Translations under genes and position numbers: made by a program
The notes under the pieces: model-generated
What the model saw: the letters and a program-made list of their open reading frames with translations, nothing else
What the model was told of the DNA's origin: nothing
The model's database searches: none
Part shown: piece after piece, positions 12,335-39,662 of the stretch
How the letters are laid out: every line of letters begins with the position of its first letter
Numbering within the stretch: the stretch's first letter is position 1
DNA from: Melioribacteraceae bacterium
Lineage (GTDB): Bacteria > Bacteroidota > Ignavibacteria > Ignavibacteriales > Melioribacteraceae
DNA length: 59,683 nt
Assembly: GCA_021647785.1 (NCBI GenBank)
Contig: JAKIUC010000025.1
Location: 1 to 59,683 of the forward strand
Direction: 5' to 3'

Positions 12335-12354
12335 GAGATATTAAAACTATAGGT

Positions 12355-12395
12355 AAGTAAGGGAGATTTTTTCACCTCTCCCATCTTACTTTTTT
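12355..12395 (+). terminator. Terminator/attenuator after the dehydrogenase gene
   Basis: AAGTAAGGGAGA (12355-12366) pairs with TCTCCC..CTTACTT (12377-12391) with a two-base bulge, followed directly by a T run. It lies between the dehydrogenase and HD-domain genes. Confidence 0.75.
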
Positions 12396-12408: not shown

Positions 12409-12957
12409 ATGAGCGATAAAATAAAAAAAATCTGGCCAGAAATTGACTGGATTAAAAATGAAGAATTAAAACAAAAGGTTACTGATAGCTGGGTTCATGC
12501 AATTGAAAATAGTGTGCTTGAACCAGAAGATTTGGAGAAGATTCCTTTCTCTTTATTAATTCAAAATTGCAATATTACTTTTATGAACCATAAGAGAACT
12601 GTTGTACAGCTTAGTGTTGATATGGCAAAACGTATGCAAGAGAATTTTGGTAACGAAATTAAGATTGATATGGATTTGCTAATTGCTGGTGCAATCTTAA
12701 TTGATGTTGGTAAATTGCTTGAATATGAAATGGTTGATGGAAAACTGAGTACAAGCAGCTTTGGCAAGTATGTTCGCCATCCATTTAGCGGTATTGGAAT
12801 TGCTCAACAATTTGGCTTACCGCCTGAAGTACTTCACATGATTGGCACGCATTCTAAAGAAGGAGATATCGGCAAGCGTTCTGTTGAATCACAAATTATT
12901 CATCATGCCGATTTTGTGAGTTTCGAACCATTTCAAGAAGCGAAAACGATAACGTGA
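12409..12957 (+). CDS. HD-domain protein lacking the HD histidine
   Basis: 182 residues with the HD-phosphohydrolase layout: first His in MNHKRTVVQLS, then AGAILIDVGKLLEYE where the usual HD doublet should be, then RHPFSGIGIA, IGTHSKEGD and HHADFV. The doublet reads Ile-Asp, so one metal ligand is missing and catalysis may be altered or lost. Substrate unknown; HD proteins usually cleave nucleotide phosphates. The last three residues (TIT) and the stop lie inside the left inverted repeat of the four-helix-bundle cassette, so the original C-terminus may have been replaced. Confidence 0.7.
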   Translation: MSDKIKKIWPEIDWIKNEELKQKVTDSWVHAIENSVLEPEDLEKIPFSLLIQNCNITFMNHKRTVVQLSVDMAKRMQENFGNEIKIDMDLLIAGAILIDVGKLLEYEMVDGKLSTSSFGKYVRHPFSGIGIAQQFGLPPEVLHMIGTHSKEGDIGKRSVESQIIHHADFVSFEPFQEAKTIT

Positions 12958-13526
12958 AATGTGAAACGGCAAATGTGAAAATCTGAAGTCTCTATATTTT
13001 TTCAAGTGCAATTGCTCTGATTTATTTCTAATTTTAATCTCACTTTTAATAAAAACGAAGGGATACCATGTTAAAATTAAATCACAAAAATCTTGATGTT
13101 TGGAAAGTTTCTATGAAACTAATTAAAGAAGTTTACTTATCAACAAAATCTTTTCCAAAAGAAGAACTATTTGGATTAGTTAGTCAAATGAGACGTGCTG
13201 CTGTTTCTATAATTTCAAATATTTCTGAAGGAGCTGCTCGAAAAAGCACAATTGAAAGAAAACGATTTTACGAAATTGCTAGAGCATCACTTGTTGAATT
13301 AGACACGCAATTTGAGATATCGTTTGAGTTGAATTATTTAAAGAAGAAAGAAACTAGCAACATTGACAAATTATTAAATCATACTTTTGCTTTACTCTCT
13401 AACCTGATAAAAAGTTGACTAAAATTTATACCTTCTTTTTAAGTAACAGAACAAGTTTAGATAAAAAAGATTGTAAATATAGAATGTCTCTTTTTCATGT
13501 TTGACATTTGCCCTTTCACATTATCG
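12947..13526. mobile_element. Four-helix-bundle gene cassette with terminal inverted repeats
   Basis: The left end (12947-12980, CGATAACGTGAAA then GGCAAATGTGAAA) matches the reverse complement of the right end (13493-13526, CGATAATGTGAAA then GGGCAAATGTCAAA) with a short gap. The only gene inside is the 116-residue four-helix-bundle gene. The cassette lies between the HD gene and the aconitase gene; its right end runs to 8 bases before the aconitase start and touches its ribosome-binding site. No transposase is present. Confidence 0.6.
13068..13418 (+). CDS. Four-helix bundle protein (23S IVS-like family)
   Basis: 116 residues of the family first seen in 23S rRNA intervening sequences: LDVWKVSMKLIKEVY, then FGLVSQMRRAAVSIISNISEGAAR, then FYEIARASLVELDTQFEIS. 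The SI..NI.EG motif is diagnostic. Members form pentameric helical bundles and are widespread single-gene insertions; a relative (Avd) serves diversity-generating retroelements, but no reverse transcriptase is here. The gene is intact and has GAAGGGA upstream of its ATG. Its position inside inverted repeats suggests a mobile cassette. Function unknown. Confidence 0.85.
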   Translation: MLKLNHKNLDVWKVSMKLIKEVYLSTKSFPKEELFGLVSQMRRAAVSIISNISEGAARKSTIERKRFYEIARASLVELDTQFEISFELNYLKKKETSNIDKLLNHTFALLSNLIKS

Positions 13527-13534
13527 GAGATAAT

Positions 13535-15511
13535 ATGCCCCAAAATATAATTGAAAAGATAGCCCAACGGTTTGCTGTTGAATTGGATGATGGAGCCATT
13601 GTTAATAGCGGAGATTTCATTTCCATCAAGCCAGCACATGTTATGACACACGATAACACTGGTGCAGTTATTCCAAAGTTTAAATCTATTGGTGCAACTA
13701 AACTTGCCAACCCTCGCCAAGTTGTGCATACGCTTGACCACAATATTCAAGATAAAAGCGAAAAGAATCTTGAGAAATATAAAAATATCGAGGCATTCTC
13801 AAATTCTGTTGGGGCTGATTTCTATCCAGCCGGTCGTGGAATTGGGCATCAAGTAATGATTGAAGAAGGCTATGCTTGGCCCGGGACAATGGTTGTGGCT
13901 TCCGATAGTCATTCCAATATGTATGGCGGAATTGGTGCACTTGGCACTCCCATTGTACGAACAGATGCTGCATCAATATGGGCTACTGGAAGAACTTGGT
14001 GGCAAATTCCTCCAATTGCAAAAGTTGTTTTAACTGGTAAACTACAAAACGGAGTTACTGGAAAGGATGTAATAATTGCCCTTGCCGGATATTTTAACAA
14101 AGATGAAGTTCTAAATCATATAATTGAATTTGCTGGTGATGGAGTAAAAGAACTTTCGCTCGATAAGAGATTGACCATTGCAAATATGACTACAGAATGG
14201 GGTGCACTCGGTGGCGTTTTCCCAATTGATGAAGTAACAACAAATTGGATAGCTAAACGAATTGGAAAAGTAAAAGCTCGCGGATTGCAGGGCGTTCCCT
14301 CCGATGCTGATGGAAACGGTGAACAACCAAGAATGAACACTACAAGGTTGCAAGCATTAAAAGATGATATACAAAATCTTAAACCAGATGCAGATGCATA
14401 CTATGCAAAAGAGATTACAATTGATTTAACTTTAGTTGAGCCTATTGTTGCTGGACCAAACTCTGTAAAAGTTATGAACACCGCTTTGGCATTGAGCAAA
14501 CAAGATATTAAAATTAATAAAGCATATTTGCTCTCCTGTACAAATAGCCGTGAAGAAGATATTGCAGAAGCTGCGAGAATTTTAAATGGGAAAAAGATTG
14601 CAGATGGAGTTGAGTTTTATGTTGCAGCAGCATCAAACGAAGTGCAAGCAGAGAGTGAACTCAATGGCGATTGGCAAATACTTTTGGATGCAGGTGCAAT
14701 TCCTCTTCCTCCTGGTTGTGGACCCTGTATAGGACTTGGAGTTGGATTGCTTGAAGATGAAGAAATTGGAATATCTGCAACCAACAGAAATTTTAAAGGT
14801 CGTATGGGTTCCCCTACTGCATTGGCTTATCTTGCATCCCCTGCTGTGGTTGCGGCATCTGCAATTGCTGGTAAAATTACTTTTGATGGAAATTATTCTG
14901 GTTCTAATATTTCTGCTGATATTAAGATTCTTCCAAAACCAGAGAGAAAGATTGCAGAGGTAAATATTATTGATGGATTTCCAGAATTAATTGAGGGCGA
15001 TTTATTATTCTGTCCTCAAGACAATTTAAACACGGATGGAATTTATCCTGGCAAATACACATATAATGATGACTTTACTCCGGAAGACCAAGCAAGAGTT
15101 GTAATGGAAAACTACGATCCAGAATTTGGAAAGATTGTTAAAGAAGGTGATATTCTTGTTGGTGGATTTAACTTTGGTAGTGGAAGTTCCCGCGAACAAG
15201 CTGCTACAGCATTGAAATATCGTGGAGTACAACTTGTAATTACTGGCTCTGCAAGTCAGACTTATATGCGTAACGCCCTTAACAATGGATTCTTAGTACT
15301 CGAAGTTCCAGAATTAGTTAATGATTTCAAGAATAAATTTAGCGATAGCAAACTAACTATTGAAACTGGAATAAAAGCAAAGATTGATTTCAAAAAATCA
15401 AAAATATTTGCTGGAGATTTGGAGTATTCAATAAGTCCCGTTGGTACTGCCGCACAGGAATTAGTTGTAGTAGGTGGATTGGAGAATTGGGTAAAAAGAG
15501 AATTAAAATAA
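13535..15511 (+). CDS. Aconitase-family hydratase, homoaconitase (Lys4)-like
   Basis: 658 residues. Iron-sulfur cysteines are in LLSCTNSR and PPGCGPCIGLG; the swivel domain follows (GFNFGSGSSREQA). Motifs such as FYPAGRGIGHQVM, ATGRTWWQIPP, GISATNRNFKGRMGS and NTDGIYPGKYTY closely follow fungal mitochondrial homoaconitase as I remember it, rather than AcnA or AcnB. In this setting it probably interconverts citrate, aconitate and isocitrate; homocitrate-type substrates are possible. I start it at ATG 13535, which has CGGAGA just upstream, not at the TTG 27 bases earlier. Its final 49 coding bases are repeated after the neighbouring toxin module. Confidence 0.85.
   Translation: MPQNIIEKIAQRFAVELDDGAIVNSGDFISIKPAHVMTHDNTGAVIPKFKSIGATKLANPRQVVHTLDHNIQDKSEKNLEKYKNIEAFSNSVGADFYPAGRGIGHQVMIEEGYAWPGTMVVASDSHSNMYGGIGALGTPIVRTDAASIWATGRTWWQIPPIAKVVLTGKLQNGVTGKDVIIALAGYFNKDEVLNHIIEFAGDGVKELSLDKRLTIANMTTEWGALGGVFPIDEVTTNWIAKRIGKVKARGLQGVPSDADGNGEQPRMNTTRLQALKDDIQNLKPDADAYYAKEITIDLTLVEPIVAGPNSVKVMNTALALSKQDIKINKAYLLSCTNSREEDIAEAARILNGKKIADGVEFYVAAASNEVQAESELNGDWQILLDAGAIPLPPGCGPCIGLGVGLLEDEEIGISATNRNFKGRMGSPTALAYLASPAVVAASAIAGKITFDGNYSGSNISADIKILPKPERKIAEVNIIDGFPELIEGDLLFCPQDNLNTDGIYPGKYTYNDDFTPEDQARVVMENYDPEFGKIVKEGDILVGGFNFGSGSSREQAATALKYRGVQLVITGSASQTYMRNALNNGFLVLEVPELVNDFKNKFSDSKLTIETGIKAKIDFKKSKIFAGDLEYSISPVGTAAQELVVVGGLENWVKRELK
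15444..15492 (+). repeat. Direct repeat, copy 1: 3' end of the aconitase gene
   Basis: 49 bases of coding sequence (codons for TAAQELVVVGGLENWV) repeated at 16071-16119 with one mismatch. The intervening ~580 bp carry a toxin-antitoxin module. Confidence 0.9.
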
Positions 15512-20295: not shown

Positions 20296-21480
20296 ATGGC
20301 AAAAGCAACAGCAGGTCAGCAAGGTACAAAAGTTCGCTCCGATTGTTACATCAAGATAACATCCAAACGGCTTGGGGGAATAAAATTAGATTGTAAAAGC
20401 AAAGTAGATGTTATGTATGGAGAATCGATACGCACAACCATTTTGGATATGTGTAAATTCTTTGAACTAAAACATGCATCTATTTTAGTTGAAGATTATG
20501 GTGCACTTCCATCCACATTAATGGCAAGGTTTGAGATAGCAGTTAAACGACTTAATCCTAAAATGGAAAAAGAGTACTTACCAAATTTTAATAAAAAGAA
20601 CAGATACGCAACTTCAAAAGATAGATTAAGGCGAAGCAGGCTTTATCTCCCTGGCAACGAACCAAAGTTTTATCCCAATGCTGGCTTACATAAACCTGAT
20701 GGAGTGATACTTGATTTGGAAGACTCTGTTGCACCAACAGAAAAAGATTCTGCACAACTAATTGTTAGAAATGCGTTAAGGTCAATAGACTTCTATGGTT
20801 CAGAGCGTATGGTGCGTATTAACCAATTACCGCAAGGGCTTGATGACTTAAAATATATTGTTCCTAATAATGTTCATGCAATTTTAATTCCAAAAGCTGA
20901 AACAGCAGAGCAAATTAAAGAAGTTGATGCAGAAGTTAAGAGATTAAAAATATTGCACAGAATAAAAAATGATATCTATTTTATGCCAATTATTGAATCT
21001 GCCCTTGGTGTTATTAATGCTTACGATATTGCAATATCAAGTGATAACAATTGTGCCCTCGCTATTGGATTAGAAGATTACACCGCAGATATTGGAACAC
21101 AAAGAACCAATGAAGGTAAAGAGAGCTTTTATGCACGTACTGCTTTAATCAATGCAGCAAAGGCTGCTGGAGTTCAGGCAATAGATACTGTGTTCTCTGA
21201 TGTTAATGATATGGATGGTTTACGCGCATCAGTAGTTGAAGCTAAAGGATTAGGTTTTGAAGGGAAAGGATGCATTCATCCAAGACAAATTAAAATAGTG
21301 CACGAAGCATTTGCACCAACAGAATTGGAAATTGAAAAAGCAGAAAAAATTGTGAATGCCTTTGAAGAAGCAAAACAAAAAGGTATTGGTGTAGTTTCAA
21401 TTGGAAGTAAAATGATTGATGCTCCGGTTGTAAAGAGGGCGGTTAATACATTAAAATTGGTTGCACTTATTAAAAAGTAA
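20296..21480 (+). CDS. Citrate lyase gamma-beta fusion (CitD-CitE)
   Basis: 394 residues. Residues 1-~100 are the CitD acyl carrier protein: VRSDCYIKI with the likely prosthetic-group serine Ser15, and ESIRTTILDM. From about 110 on it is CitE, an HpcH/HpaI-family lyase: RLRRSRLYLPGNEP, GVILDLEDSVAPTEKD, RMVRIN, IESALGV, LEDYTADIG and GKGCIHPRQI. Normally CitD and CitE are separate subunits. With CitF downstream this should form citrate lyase (citrate to acetate plus oxaloacetate). The genes needed to make and attach the cofactor (citC, citX, citG) are not in the window. Citramalate is an alternative substrate. Confidence 0.87.
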   Translation: MAKATAGQQGTKVRSDCYIKITSKRLGGIKLDCKSKVDVMYGESIRTTILDMCKFFELKHASILVEDYGALPSTLMARFEIAVKRLNPKMEKEYLPNFNKKNRYATSKDRLRRSRLYLPGNEPKFYPNAGLHKPDGVILDLEDSVAPTEKDSAQLIVRNALRSIDFYGSERMVRINQLPQGLDDLKYIVPNNVHAILIPKAETAEQIKEVDAEVKRLKILHRIKNDIYFMPIIESALGVINAYDIAISSDNNCALAIGLEDYTADIGTQRTNEGKESFYARTALINAAKAAGVQAIDTVFSDVNDMDGLRASVVEAKGLGFEGKGCIHPRQIKIVHEAFAPTELEIEKAEKIVNAFEEAKQKGIGVVSIGSKMIDAPVVKRAVNTLKLVALIKK

Positions 21481-21494
21481 ATATGATTTTATGA

Positions 21495-22019
21495 ATTGTT
21501 CTATTGCTCCATTGTTATATTGTTGAATTGTTAAAAGCGAAAATAGGAATGTAATGAATGAGAAAAAGTATTTAAAACTTAATGATATTGATTCATATAA
21601 AATTTCGTTTCAATTGAGCAACTACGTTGGGATATTATTTCTGGATGGGACTATTTTGCTAAGAAAACAATTGGAGCTCAGTTTATGAATGCAATCGATT
21701 CAATCTCAGCGAATATAGCTGAAGGCTTTGGAAGATTTGGTAAAAAAGATAAAATTAAATTTTACAGAATAGCATTTGGCTCTATGTATGAAGCACTTGA
21801 TTGGACTGAAAAAGCTATTAAAAGAAAACTTATATCAGATGACGAATACAAATATATTTTTTCTGAATTAAATAAACTGCCAAAAGAAATTCACTCGTTG
21901 ATAAAATTTACAAATGATAAATTAAAAGAATAGAAGAATAAATTGTTTCATTGTTCTATTGCTAAATTGTTAAAAGCAAGTAACAATGTAACAATAGAGC
22001 AATTTAACAATAGAACAAT
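21495..22019. mobile_element. Second four-helix-bundle cassette with inverted repeat ends
   Basis: The left end starts ATTGTTCTATTG (21495) and the right end finishes with its exact reverse complement CAATAGAACAAT (22008-22019); both continue into related ATTGTT/TAACAAT-rich sequence ending near TTAAAAGC. The right flank is itself a long imperfect hairpin (about 21950-22019). The cassette separates citDE from citF and ends 12 bases before the citF start. Confidence 0.55.
21554..21933 (+). pseudogene. Frameshifted four-helix bundle gene
   Basis: From ATG 21554 the frame reads MNEKKYLKLNDIDSYKIS..LSNYV, then fails at about 21626-21629. One frame over it continues WDIISGWDYFAKKTIGAQF, SISANIAEGFGRFGK and RIAFGSMYEALDWTEKA to a stop at 21931-21933. 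Adding one T to GTTGGG restores a complete 126-residue protein, so a single-base deletion is the likely cause (a sequencing error in a short T run cannot be excluded). The part after 21685 could still be translated from an internal ATG. Confidence 0.8.
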
Positions 22020-22031
22020 AGAGTAAGTATT

Positions 22032-23588
22032 ATGAAACTAATAAAAAACGCAGCAGGACGCTTTGTTCCAACCGAAGTAAACGGTAAAAAAGTAATTCCA
22101 TTTCAAGGAGTTAACAAATATAAACCTACCGGAAATAAATACGGCGGTGCAATTAAAAGTTGTGCAAACTACCCACTTGATGGGAATAAAGTTGCAAAGA
22201 ACTTACGTGAAGCACTTAAAAAATCTGGCTTAAAAAATGGGATGACAATCTCCACACATCATCATTTACGAAATGGCGATTTATTAACAAACATTCTTTT
22301 TGATACAATAAAATCAATGGGTGTGAAAAATATCCGCTGGTACCCAAGTGCATCTTTTCCTGTTCATGAACATTTAATAAAATATTTGGATGACGGCACT
22401 ATCCATCATATTGAAGGTTCTATGAACGGTCCACTTGGGAAATATTCTTCTGAAGGTAAAATGAAAGGAGTTGGTGTTCTCCGCTCGCACGGGGGCAGAT
22501 ACCAATCAATACAGGATGGTGATGTGCATATTGACCTTGCTGTTATTGCTGCTCCAACAGCCGATCCTTTTGGGAATGCTACTGGCGACAGAGGTAAATC
22601 GGCATGTGGTTTGCTTGGCTTTGCACTTGCAGATTCTGAGTATGCAGATAATGTAATTGTAGTTACCGATAATCTCATTCCCTTCCCTTGCACACCTTGG
22701 CAAATACAAGGCAACAATGTCGATTATGTTGTGGAAGTTGAATCACTTGGTGATCCAACAAAAATTGTTTCGGGTACAACCCAAGTAACCAAAAGCCCAG
22801 ATAGACTTTTGATTGCAGAATATGTTGCAGAGTTCTTAGAAGAATCTGGAATACTGAAAGATGGATTCTCTTTTCAAGCTGGTGCCGGTGGTACAAACCT
22901 TGCTTTCGCCCTTTATCTAAAGGAGAAAATGATAAAGAGAAATATAAAAGCAAGATTTATCCGCGGTGGTAGTACTAAATATCTTGTGGAAATGTTAGAG
23001 GAAGGTTTAACCGATTACATTCTGGATGGACAAACATTCGATCTTGAGGGTGTTCGCTCAATGCGAGAAAATAGTGGGCATTTAAATACGAGTCCATTTA
23101 CAAGCTACAACTTTCACGGAAAAGGAAACTTTGCATCGATGCTTGATGCTGTTGTGCTTGGCGCTACAGAAGTTGATATAAATTTTAATGCCAATGTTGT
23201 TACACATTCTGATGGATACTTACTGCACGGAATTGGCGGATGGCAAAATTGTTTATTTGGTAAAACTGTAATTCTTGCAATTCCATCTTTCCGAGATAGA
23301 ATACCGGTAATTGTTGATGAAGTAACAACACTTGTTGCACCTGGCGAATTGGTTGATGTTATTGTTACAGAGCGTGGTATTGCTATCAATCCTAAACGTA
23401 AGGATTTATTTAAAGCAGTTAAAGGTAGCGGACTTCCGATAAAACCAATAAAACAAATTTATAAAGAAGTAAATGATATTTGCGGCGGCAAACCGGCTAA
23501 ACCAAAAGTGAACAGAAATGAAATTGTTGCAATCATAAAATGGGTTGATGGAACTGTGATAGATTCTGTTTTTAAAGTTGAGAAGTAA
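22032..23588 (+). CDS. citF: Citrate lyase alpha subunit (CitF)
   Basis: 518 residues, the usual CitF length. ISTHHHLRNGD, VIAAPTADPFGNATG, GFSFQAGAGGTNLA, RGGSTKYLVEMLEEGLTDYILDGQTFD and VDEVTTLVAPGELVDVIVTERGIAINP are CitF/CoA-transferase motifs. It transfers the acyl-ACP thioester from acetate to citrate so that CitE can cleave citryl-ACP. Last gene of the citrate block; a RelB-YafQ module follows. Upstream spacing is dominated by the second four-helix cassette. Confidence 0.9.
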   Translation: MKLIKNAAGRFVPTEVNGKKVIPFQGVNKYKPTGNKYGGAIKSCANYPLDGNKVAKNLREALKKSGLKNGMTISTHHHLRNGDLLTNILFDTIKSMGVKNIRWYPSASFPVHEHLIKYLDDGTIHHIEGSMNGPLGKYSSEGKMKGVGVLRSHGGRYQSIQDGDVHIDLAVIAAPTADPFGNATGDRGKSACGLLGFALADSEYADNVIVVTDNLIPFPCTPWQIQGNNVDYVVEVESLGDPTKIVSGTTQVTKSPDRLLIAEYVAEFLEESGILKDGFSFQAGAGGTNLAFALYLKEKMIKRNIKARFIRGGSTKYLVEMLEEGLTDYILDGQTFDLEGVRSMRENSGHLNTSPFTSYNFHGKGNFASMLDAVVLGATEVDINFNANVVTHSDGYLLHGIGGWQNCLFGKTVILAIPSFRDRIPVIVDEVTTLVAPGELVDVIVTERGIAINPKRKDLFKAVKGSGLPIKPIKQIYKEVNDICGGKPAKPKVNRNEIVAIIKWVDGTVIDSVFKVEK

Positions 23589-39538: not shown

Positions 39539-39662
39539 GTTTATAATTTTTTAATTTCGAATGCTGAACAAGGAATTACGAATATCGAAGTCTTTTGTAC
39601 GCCTTGCTGAGGTAGATTCGACATTCCTTGTTCAAGATTCTTTATTCGATATTTTCTTTTTT

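Follow-up and report, generated by a model that had tools for sequence, protein, structure and literature searches.

Intervening sequences (IVSs) in the 23S rRNA genes of Leptospira and Coxiella have terminal inverted repeats that form a stem, with a gene of the S23p/PF05635 family in its loop, an arrangement shared by the element described here. IVSs with an S23p open reading frame go back to Ralph and McClelland 1993, and the passages of PMC4990558 and PMC3936711 that cite this work call them selfish and possibly mobile. For the Coxiella 23S IVS, the pertinent passages of PMC4990558 give inverted ends, tandem heptamers (GACAGAT) beside the gene, a protein of the same family and cleavage by RNase III in vitro; they also suggest that no S23p is produced in vivo and that the RNA is the more important part, an argument against the protein being required in the Coxiella element. 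According to a passage in PMC11270868, the family is also found in insertions within the 16S and 23S rRNA genes of CPR bacteria.

Intergenic seven-base arrays like those of the present element have been described as heptameric simple repeats, among them GGGAATC in Xanthomonas, GGGGATT in Nostoc and TAACTGA in Beggiatoaceae (passages in PMC4692102 and PMC4679880). The same passages report paired inverted heptamer arrays in Xanthomonas and an over-representation of heptanucleotide repeats in many bacteria. They make no link to a four-helix-bundle gene, and the Xanthomonas/Nostoc paper, in the part concerned, holds that heptameric repeats are generally not associated with mobile elements.

The window, by which we mean the whole stretch of 59,683 nucleotides analysed from a Melioribacteraceae bacterium, contains an operon in which an isocitrate/isopropylmalate-dehydrogenase-family gene (IDH) precedes genes for an HD-domain protein, a four-helix-bundle protein and an aconitase-family protein. 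Its relevant features are these:

12351..12391, plus strand: short hairpin at the IDH/HD junction, resembling a gene-less array pair; it folds only weakly better than shuffles (z -1.1)
12409..12957, plus strand: upstream host gene, an HD-domain protein (profile match; relatives compared)
12954..12981, plus strand: left terminal array of four imperfect heptamers, GTGAAAT GTGAAAC GGCAAAT GTGAAAA (sequence and arm test; relatives compared)
13068..13418, plus strand: four-helix-bundle gene of 116 aa, TIGR02436 / PF05635 (23S_rRNA_IVP) (profile match, dN/dS, solved relative 2gsc)
13492..13519, plus strand: right terminal array of inverted heptamers, TTTTCAT GTTTGAC ATTTGCC CTTTCAC (sequence and arm test)
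13535..15511, plus strand: downstream host gene of the aconitase family, with ATG at 13535 and GGAG at 13526-13529 (profile match)
21480..22032, plus strand: second four-helix-bundle element, with arms of ATTGTT type (period 8), flanked by two genes whose translations read as citrate-lyase-like
39559..39640, no strand assigned: gene-less inverted heptamer hairpin between two minus-strand genes, with GAAT/GAAC-type units (z -2.9)

An IVS lies inside a 23S rRNA gene, whereas the window element lies between the protein-coding HD and aconitase genes. Elements of the window type further differ from IVSs in having heptamer arrays at both ends, with a unit tied to the protein subfamily, and in the gene-less hairpins and empty sites found at operon junctions. 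The window element does have the complementary, stem-forming ends that belong to the description of an IVS. Since protein, ends and heptamers are in common and the site is not, the window element is not an IVS by definition. Among the 80 loci from named genomes described below, the 35 that were scanned against Rfam gave no rRNA match.

A repeat search returned arms of 35 nt at 12947-12981 and 13492-13526 that are 77% complementary, and 91% complementary over their inner 23 nt. Their arm score of 23 was equalled by none of 5000 dinucleotide shuffles of both flanks (maximum 20), so the claim of the initial annotation that the two ends are inverted repeats of each other is borne out; among 390 positions of the same geometry along the window, this score was met at two, namely this element and the second four-helix-bundle element. 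The end sequence quoted at that time stands in its inner heptamers and fails in its outer CGATAA/TTATCG, which overlaps HD codons and is not conserved in relatives; we therefore place the element proper at about 12954-13519. The cassette had been described as holding the four-helix-bundle gene only, and no other gene was found between the arrays. Its left end had been said to supply the HD stop, and the TGA at 12955-12957 does fall within the first left heptamer; relatives without the window element have a different last codon and stop in their HD gene. The right end had been placed at the aconitase ribosome-binding site, and this GGAG (13526-13529) begins directly past the right array. A search of the same genome with the left-arm pattern (at most three mismatches) gave 28 places, against four for the reversed pattern, a count that we do not take as evidence alone because most of these places are not near a four-helix gene and several consist of one array only or of dispersed matches. 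The arms pair in the predicted fold of the 601-nt element RNA, though this RNA is no more stable than its shuffles (z 0.00), and strong RNA structure is therefore not claimed for the gene-bearing form; of four gene-less hairpins tested, three fold better than shuffles (z -2.4 to -4.3).

The window protein matches the profiles PF05635 (E 1e-34) and TIGR02436 (E 8e-32), the latter family being titled '23S rRNA intervening-sequence protein', and its solved relative 2gsc (E 5e-27) has five chains in the crystal. To our knowledge, no function has been established for PF05635/TIGR02436. Pairwise dN/dS among the three orthologues at the window junction, its own copy and two others, is 0.10, 0.16 and 0.12, and the protein is thus kept by purifying selection; the orthologue at locus L045 has an in-frame stop. 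In an exploratory specificity-residue test, in which tree shape was left uncorrected, the columns just past an N-I-x-E-G motif (about residues 56-64 of the window protein) rank high. The family is present in 54 of 58 genomes searched (the window's own and 57 relatives). It also occurs in 25 plasmid records, mostly from Nostocales, with arms inspected in five, and 15 loci in IMG/VR match the window protein; no match to it was found at E 1e-5 among 50,697 phage records. The literature describes the solved relative 2gsc as a pentamer of four-helix bundles (cited in PMC4990558).

Other known systems share single traits with the element. The window protein has a weak match to Avd of diversity-generating retroelements (bAvd E 8e-5, DivGenRetAVD E 2e-6, both below curated cut-offs), a relationship between Avd and PF05635 that is noted in a passage of PMC10053308; profile searches of the cassette and of its three neighbours (IDH, HD and aconitase) detected no reverse transcriptase. 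A classical DNA transposon encodes a transposase, whereas the window cassette is the four-helix gene only, and in two profile libraries the window protein matched no transposase model, Y1 included. REP elements and RAYT genes combine scattered short gene-less palindromes with gene-bearing units between inverted copies, and RAYTs are tyrosine transposases. The window system is like REP/RAYT in having both gene-less palindromes and gene units with inverted ends, but its protein is instead a small helical bundle.

Inverted repeats round other copies of the gene had been proposed as a check, and they were found in most of the copies tested. From the fetched loci, which for the relatives are the top of the E-value list, 152 matches were extracted; removal of duplicates and of copies at contig ends left 131 unique elements, each with a flank of 120 bp or more. 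A left arm compared with the reverse complement of its own right arm scored 20.2 on average, against 10.7 between different copies (n = 131), and 10,000 permutations never rose above 11.9. The rank p was at most 0.05 for 105 of the 131 elements (6.6 expected) and at most 0.01 for 58; in direct orientation the own-arm mean was 13.7. With flanks of 300 bp, elements scored 24.0, versus 13.3 for displaced windows of the same loci. Matched arms are periodic, with an identity of 0.57 at lag 7 and 0.56 at lag 14, the remaining lags from 2 to 15 lying at 0.26-0.32, and in some elements the unit length is 8 or 10.

The same held in a scan of named genomes, in which 80 elements were tested in 75 of 80 loci; these loci were the best of at least 587 relatives, and the set is therefore biased toward alignment with the query. 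Here the own mean was 22.2, the cross mean 10.1 and the permutation maximum 11.9 (n = 80), with a rank p of at most 0.05 for 60 elements and at most 0.1 for 71. Identity at lags 7, 14 and 21 was 0.60, 0.60 and 0.56, and other lags over both sets lay at 0.24-0.36. Judging by record title, the named set spans Bacteroidota, Clostridia, Cyanobacteria, Patescibacteria, Verrucomicrobia, Planctomycetes and Proteobacteria. A rank p of 0.05 was missed by 26 of 131 and 20 of 80 copies, the arrays of some lying beyond 200 bp. Among elements with clear arms, G exceeds C in the 5' arm in 93 of 109 and 65 of 71; as the ends are inverted, this bias amounts to a polarity of the arrays toward the loop that is the same on both strands. 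An exception is L401 (Flavobacterium genome G085, about 1340-1980), where long AAAACCG-type heptamer arrays point the same way on both sides of the four-helix gene.

Where copies at unrelated loci of one genome could be aligned, the homology of two pairs (L477/L478 and L439/L444) has the arrays as its limits on both sides. The other two of the four pairs displayed were L454/L457, in which homology starts at the array but extends rightward, and L450/L457, which aligned elsewhere. Arrays and gene together form a unit with defined ends.

These units lie mostly in the sense of their neighbours. Of the 131 elements, 120 share the strand of their upstream neighbour and 5 are opposite to it, the downstream counts being 110 and 12; the tendency is weaker in the named set of 80 (upstream 66 same and 13 opposite, downstream 64 and 10). 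Antisense cases exist, for example between nrdB and nrdA on a Nostoc plasmid. On two plasmids, four-helix-bundle genes lie between cas6 and cas4 with inverted heptamer arrays on both sides (L426, 1486-1854; L429, 1489-1848), and the CRISPR operon of the L426 plasmid is of type I-D judging by the name cas1d. Such array-flanked copies may explain why the family was earlier listed among cas-locus functions (PMC3936711).

The heptamer goes with the protein subfamily. In 5582 element pairs that share no homologous neighbour gene, arm similarity stays at 7.5-8.0 as long as protein identity is no more than 50%, and climbs to 10.0 at 50-60% and to 13.1 above 60%. The correlation between arm and protein over these pairs, 0.139, was reached by none of 5000 permutations; it is small across all pairs because a unit is common to close subfamilies only. 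When protein labels were permuted within each genome, as a control for base composition, none of 3000 permutations was as good, and the spacers between arm and gene do not have the same rise (8.1 versus 12.3 for the arms at 60% protein identity or more, 21 pairs). The named set repeats the correlation, with an r of 0.198 versus a maximum of 0.106 in 2000 permutations. In a tree of 129 proteins, 17 of the 18 four-helix copies from the IDH-HD-aconitase operon group in a single clade (18 rows), with one long-branched outsider, a pattern to be expected from vertical descent or local copying no less than from repeated arrival.

Many gene-less hairpins bear the unit of a gene-bearing element of the same genome too. 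Of the 12 family matches in the window's own genome, one is a fragment with stops and a second has a single internal stop; arms were found at a rank p of 0.024 or better in 10 of 11 copies tested, each with its own unit, and the eleventh had 0.71. Within 848 kb of this genome (788 kb of fetched stretches plus the window), there are seven short-loop inverted heptamer hairpins, and none in three shuffles. By eye, all seven bear a unit found at the arms of a four-helix element of the same genome, and three of them adjoin such an element. The units of the hairpin at 39559..39640 look, by eye, like the arms of the four-helix-bundle element or elements at L008/L009. The second window element (21480..22032) matches the family model from position 22 onward only, and its frame appears to be interrupted past the first helix.

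In Flavobacterium, 9 of 20 operons examined have a gene-less hairpin at the fadB/fadA junction and an intact element downstream of fadA. The match between hairpin and element is 19.7 within these genomes versus 15.0 otherwise, which 16 of 20,000 permutations matched, and two units, AGAATAT and AGAAGCA, seem by eye to go with one protein type each; since hairpin and element are about 1.3 kb apart, local gene conversion could make their units alike. Two other Flavobacterium genomes (G085 and G111) have a gene-less hairpin but only one family match each, without the hairpin's unit; one of these matches has direct instead of inverted arrays, and the other has stops and no clear arms. Therefore, a cognate gene is not required for a hairpin to persist.

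Empty-site alleles, the other check proposed, were also found, both as short junctions in relatives and as closely related filled and empty pairs. The HD/aconitase junction has a four-helix gene in 12 of 49 readable genomes (the window's own included), and the IDH/HD junction in 8 of 41. Occupancy is thus patchy, at 20 of 90 readable junctions; all 20 genes follow the operon direction, and at least one is present in 17 of 51 genomes. Unfilled junctions of this operon are short, or hold gene-less inverted arrays (for example L043, from the same genus), or hold other genes. Gene-less hairpins at L043, L047 and L052-L054 are of CACAGAT and GTCAATA type. At the HD/aconitase junction of L061, a small GIY-YIG-like gene (named from its sequence) lies between GTCATTGCGA / AAGCAATCTC-like ends, and this insert appears to be another kind of small element at the same junction.

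For Flavobacterium, 61 genomes were searched for fadA, and in the best 30 loci the fadB/fadA junction was classed by length and motif, giving 20 short inserts (20-420 bp), 5 junctions with the four-helix gene, 3 empty ones (6-8 bp) and 2 others. The short inserts are, by eye, nearly all heptamer hairpins, L347 being doubtful. Over flanks of up to 900 bp, the empty junction L358 is 94.4% identical to the filled L372 and 93.9% identical to the filled L357, and L372 is 94.9% identical to L370, which has a short insert. L357 and L372 carry different elements, and the junction as a whole has been taken by unrelated units and protein types. As in the window, the stop codon of the upstream gene comes from the left array in the Flavobacterium element. 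Some inserts at this junction have forms of their own: in L373 tandem hairpins enclose a duplicated fadA start, as though one hairpin had been duplicated along with the gene start, L361 likewise has a tandem pair of hairpins, and L344, L355 and L404 have a C-rich, CCCCTAG-type inverted repeat (2 of 30 species). Among Nostoc plasmids, those of C052 and N. edaphicum carry a GGGAACA element that two C057 plasmids lack (95.5% and 93.9% flank identity). The same junction in ATCC 53789 holds a gene-less hairpin with GGGAAC-type units (88.6% identity), and in a third C057 plasmid it holds another insert (80.8% identity).

The initial annotation had spoken of a mobile unit with defined ends. This reading is supported, both of the refuting conditions set for it having failed; as to movement itself, near-identical copies at unrelated loci were not found, and recent transposition is therefore not supported. 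A blastn search on the plus strand with the 131 elements and 900 bp on each side gave no pair at unrelated loci that was at least 78% identical over 250 bp. In the most copy-rich relatives, G019 and G048, pairs overlapping the gene were only 66-74% identical among the 25 longest listed per genome. Two better matches in these genomes (87% over 698 bp and 90% over 274 bp) were considered as recent copies and rejected, as both lie outside the four-helix gene; the 698-bp match is a neighbouring gene that reads, from its sequence, like a sugar-nucleotide dehydratase. Comparing filled with empty sites by eye, we recognised no target-site duplication, a tentative result because the empty sites differ much. 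Old copies have decayed strongly in genome G019, where 13 of 30 family matches are fragments and 3 contain stops.

How such units come to lie between operon genes can be explained in several ways. Polymerase slippage and template switching in intergenic DNA might produce heptamer arrays, with the gene there by chance or for safety. The over-representation of heptanucleotide repeats in many bacteria (the passages of PMC4679880 and PMC4692102 already mentioned), a number of units that varies between arms and the direct arrays of one copy (L401) would agree with such an artefact. We nevertheless hold it to be very improbable: the match joins the two arms of one copy and not those of different copies, displaced windows of the same loci lack it, and within the window its score is reached by the two four-helix elements only, while the unit tracks the protein at unrelated loci and homology ends at the arrays. 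Terminal inverted repeats, short gene-less forms and a cassette without an enzyme are also what would be expected of a MITE-like derivative of an ordinary DNA transposon, mobilised in trans by a standard transposase and carrying the four-helix gene as a passenger. Yet the ends differ among the elements of one genome, so that one transposase could hardly read them by sequence; they track the four-helix protein, and no target-site duplication was seen. This origin, too, appears improbable to us.

A regulatory module would have the four-helix protein bind heptamer hairpins in the operon mRNA and tune the processing or stability of the flanking metabolic genes, with the gene-less hairpins as other targets. 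Purifying selection on the window protein and the sense position between operon genes are in keeping with this idea, as are the single protein clade in the IDH-HD-aconitase operon, the unit common to two junctions of an operon in nine Flavobacterium genomes, and the good folding of three of the four gene-less hairpins tested (z -2.4 to -4.3). We consider it rather unlikely, however, given that, at 94-95% identity, one species may have the filled allele and another the gene-less or empty one, that unrelated units and protein types occupy the same junction, that occupancy is patchy (20 of 90 readable junctions), that copies decay (13 fragments and 3 with stops among the 30 matches in G019), and that hairpins persist in two genomes without a copy bearing their unit. 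In our opinion, the cassette is probably a selfish element of the IVS kind that lives in operons, related to the 23S rRNA intervening sequences and with a protein that recognises its own heptamers. In such an element the four-helix protein would bind its own heptamer array and would be needed for the spread or upkeep of the element, and the enzyme that copies or inserts it would be encoded elsewhere. The gene-less hairpins may be non-autonomous derivatives or relics. Pairing of the arms in the transcript could allow the insertion to be tolerated, or to be cut out by RNase III as in a 23S rRNA IVS. A bolder proposal, which we make only tentatively, is that these four-helix-bundle proteins, a very large bacterial family, read a code of seven bases: each subfamily would recognise its own heptamer, in inverted arrays at element ends and at gene-less hairpins in other parts of the genome, and would thereby drive an undescribed, probably RNA-linked insertion of small hairpin elements between operon genes.

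Heptameric repeats, their inverted pairs and IVS elements are each already in print, separately. Searches of an open-access library, with most subscription papers outside its scope, gave no link of these genes to inverted heptamer arrays at operon junctions. The link between gene and array in most copies tested and the pairing of heptamer with protein subfamily are thus new with respect to the open-access literature searched, other sources being possible. They also go beyond the initial annotation: the ends are heptamer arrays that vary with the protein, and the element is of a kind related to the 23S rRNA intervening sequences.

If such a seven-base code is true, the 23S rRNA IVSs, the puzzling 'cas-associated' copies and some of the heptamer repeats in Cyanobacteria and Bacteroidota would all belong to a single phenomenon. 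The arrays suggest a role for PF05635/TIGR02436, in that the protein should bind its own array, and they could explain the presence of the family in rRNA genes, in cas operons (PMC3936711) and in metabolic operons, as well as the source of part of the unexplained heptameric repeats of bacteria. A family with a different seven-base repeat for each of its members would be a natural library for sequence-specific binding.
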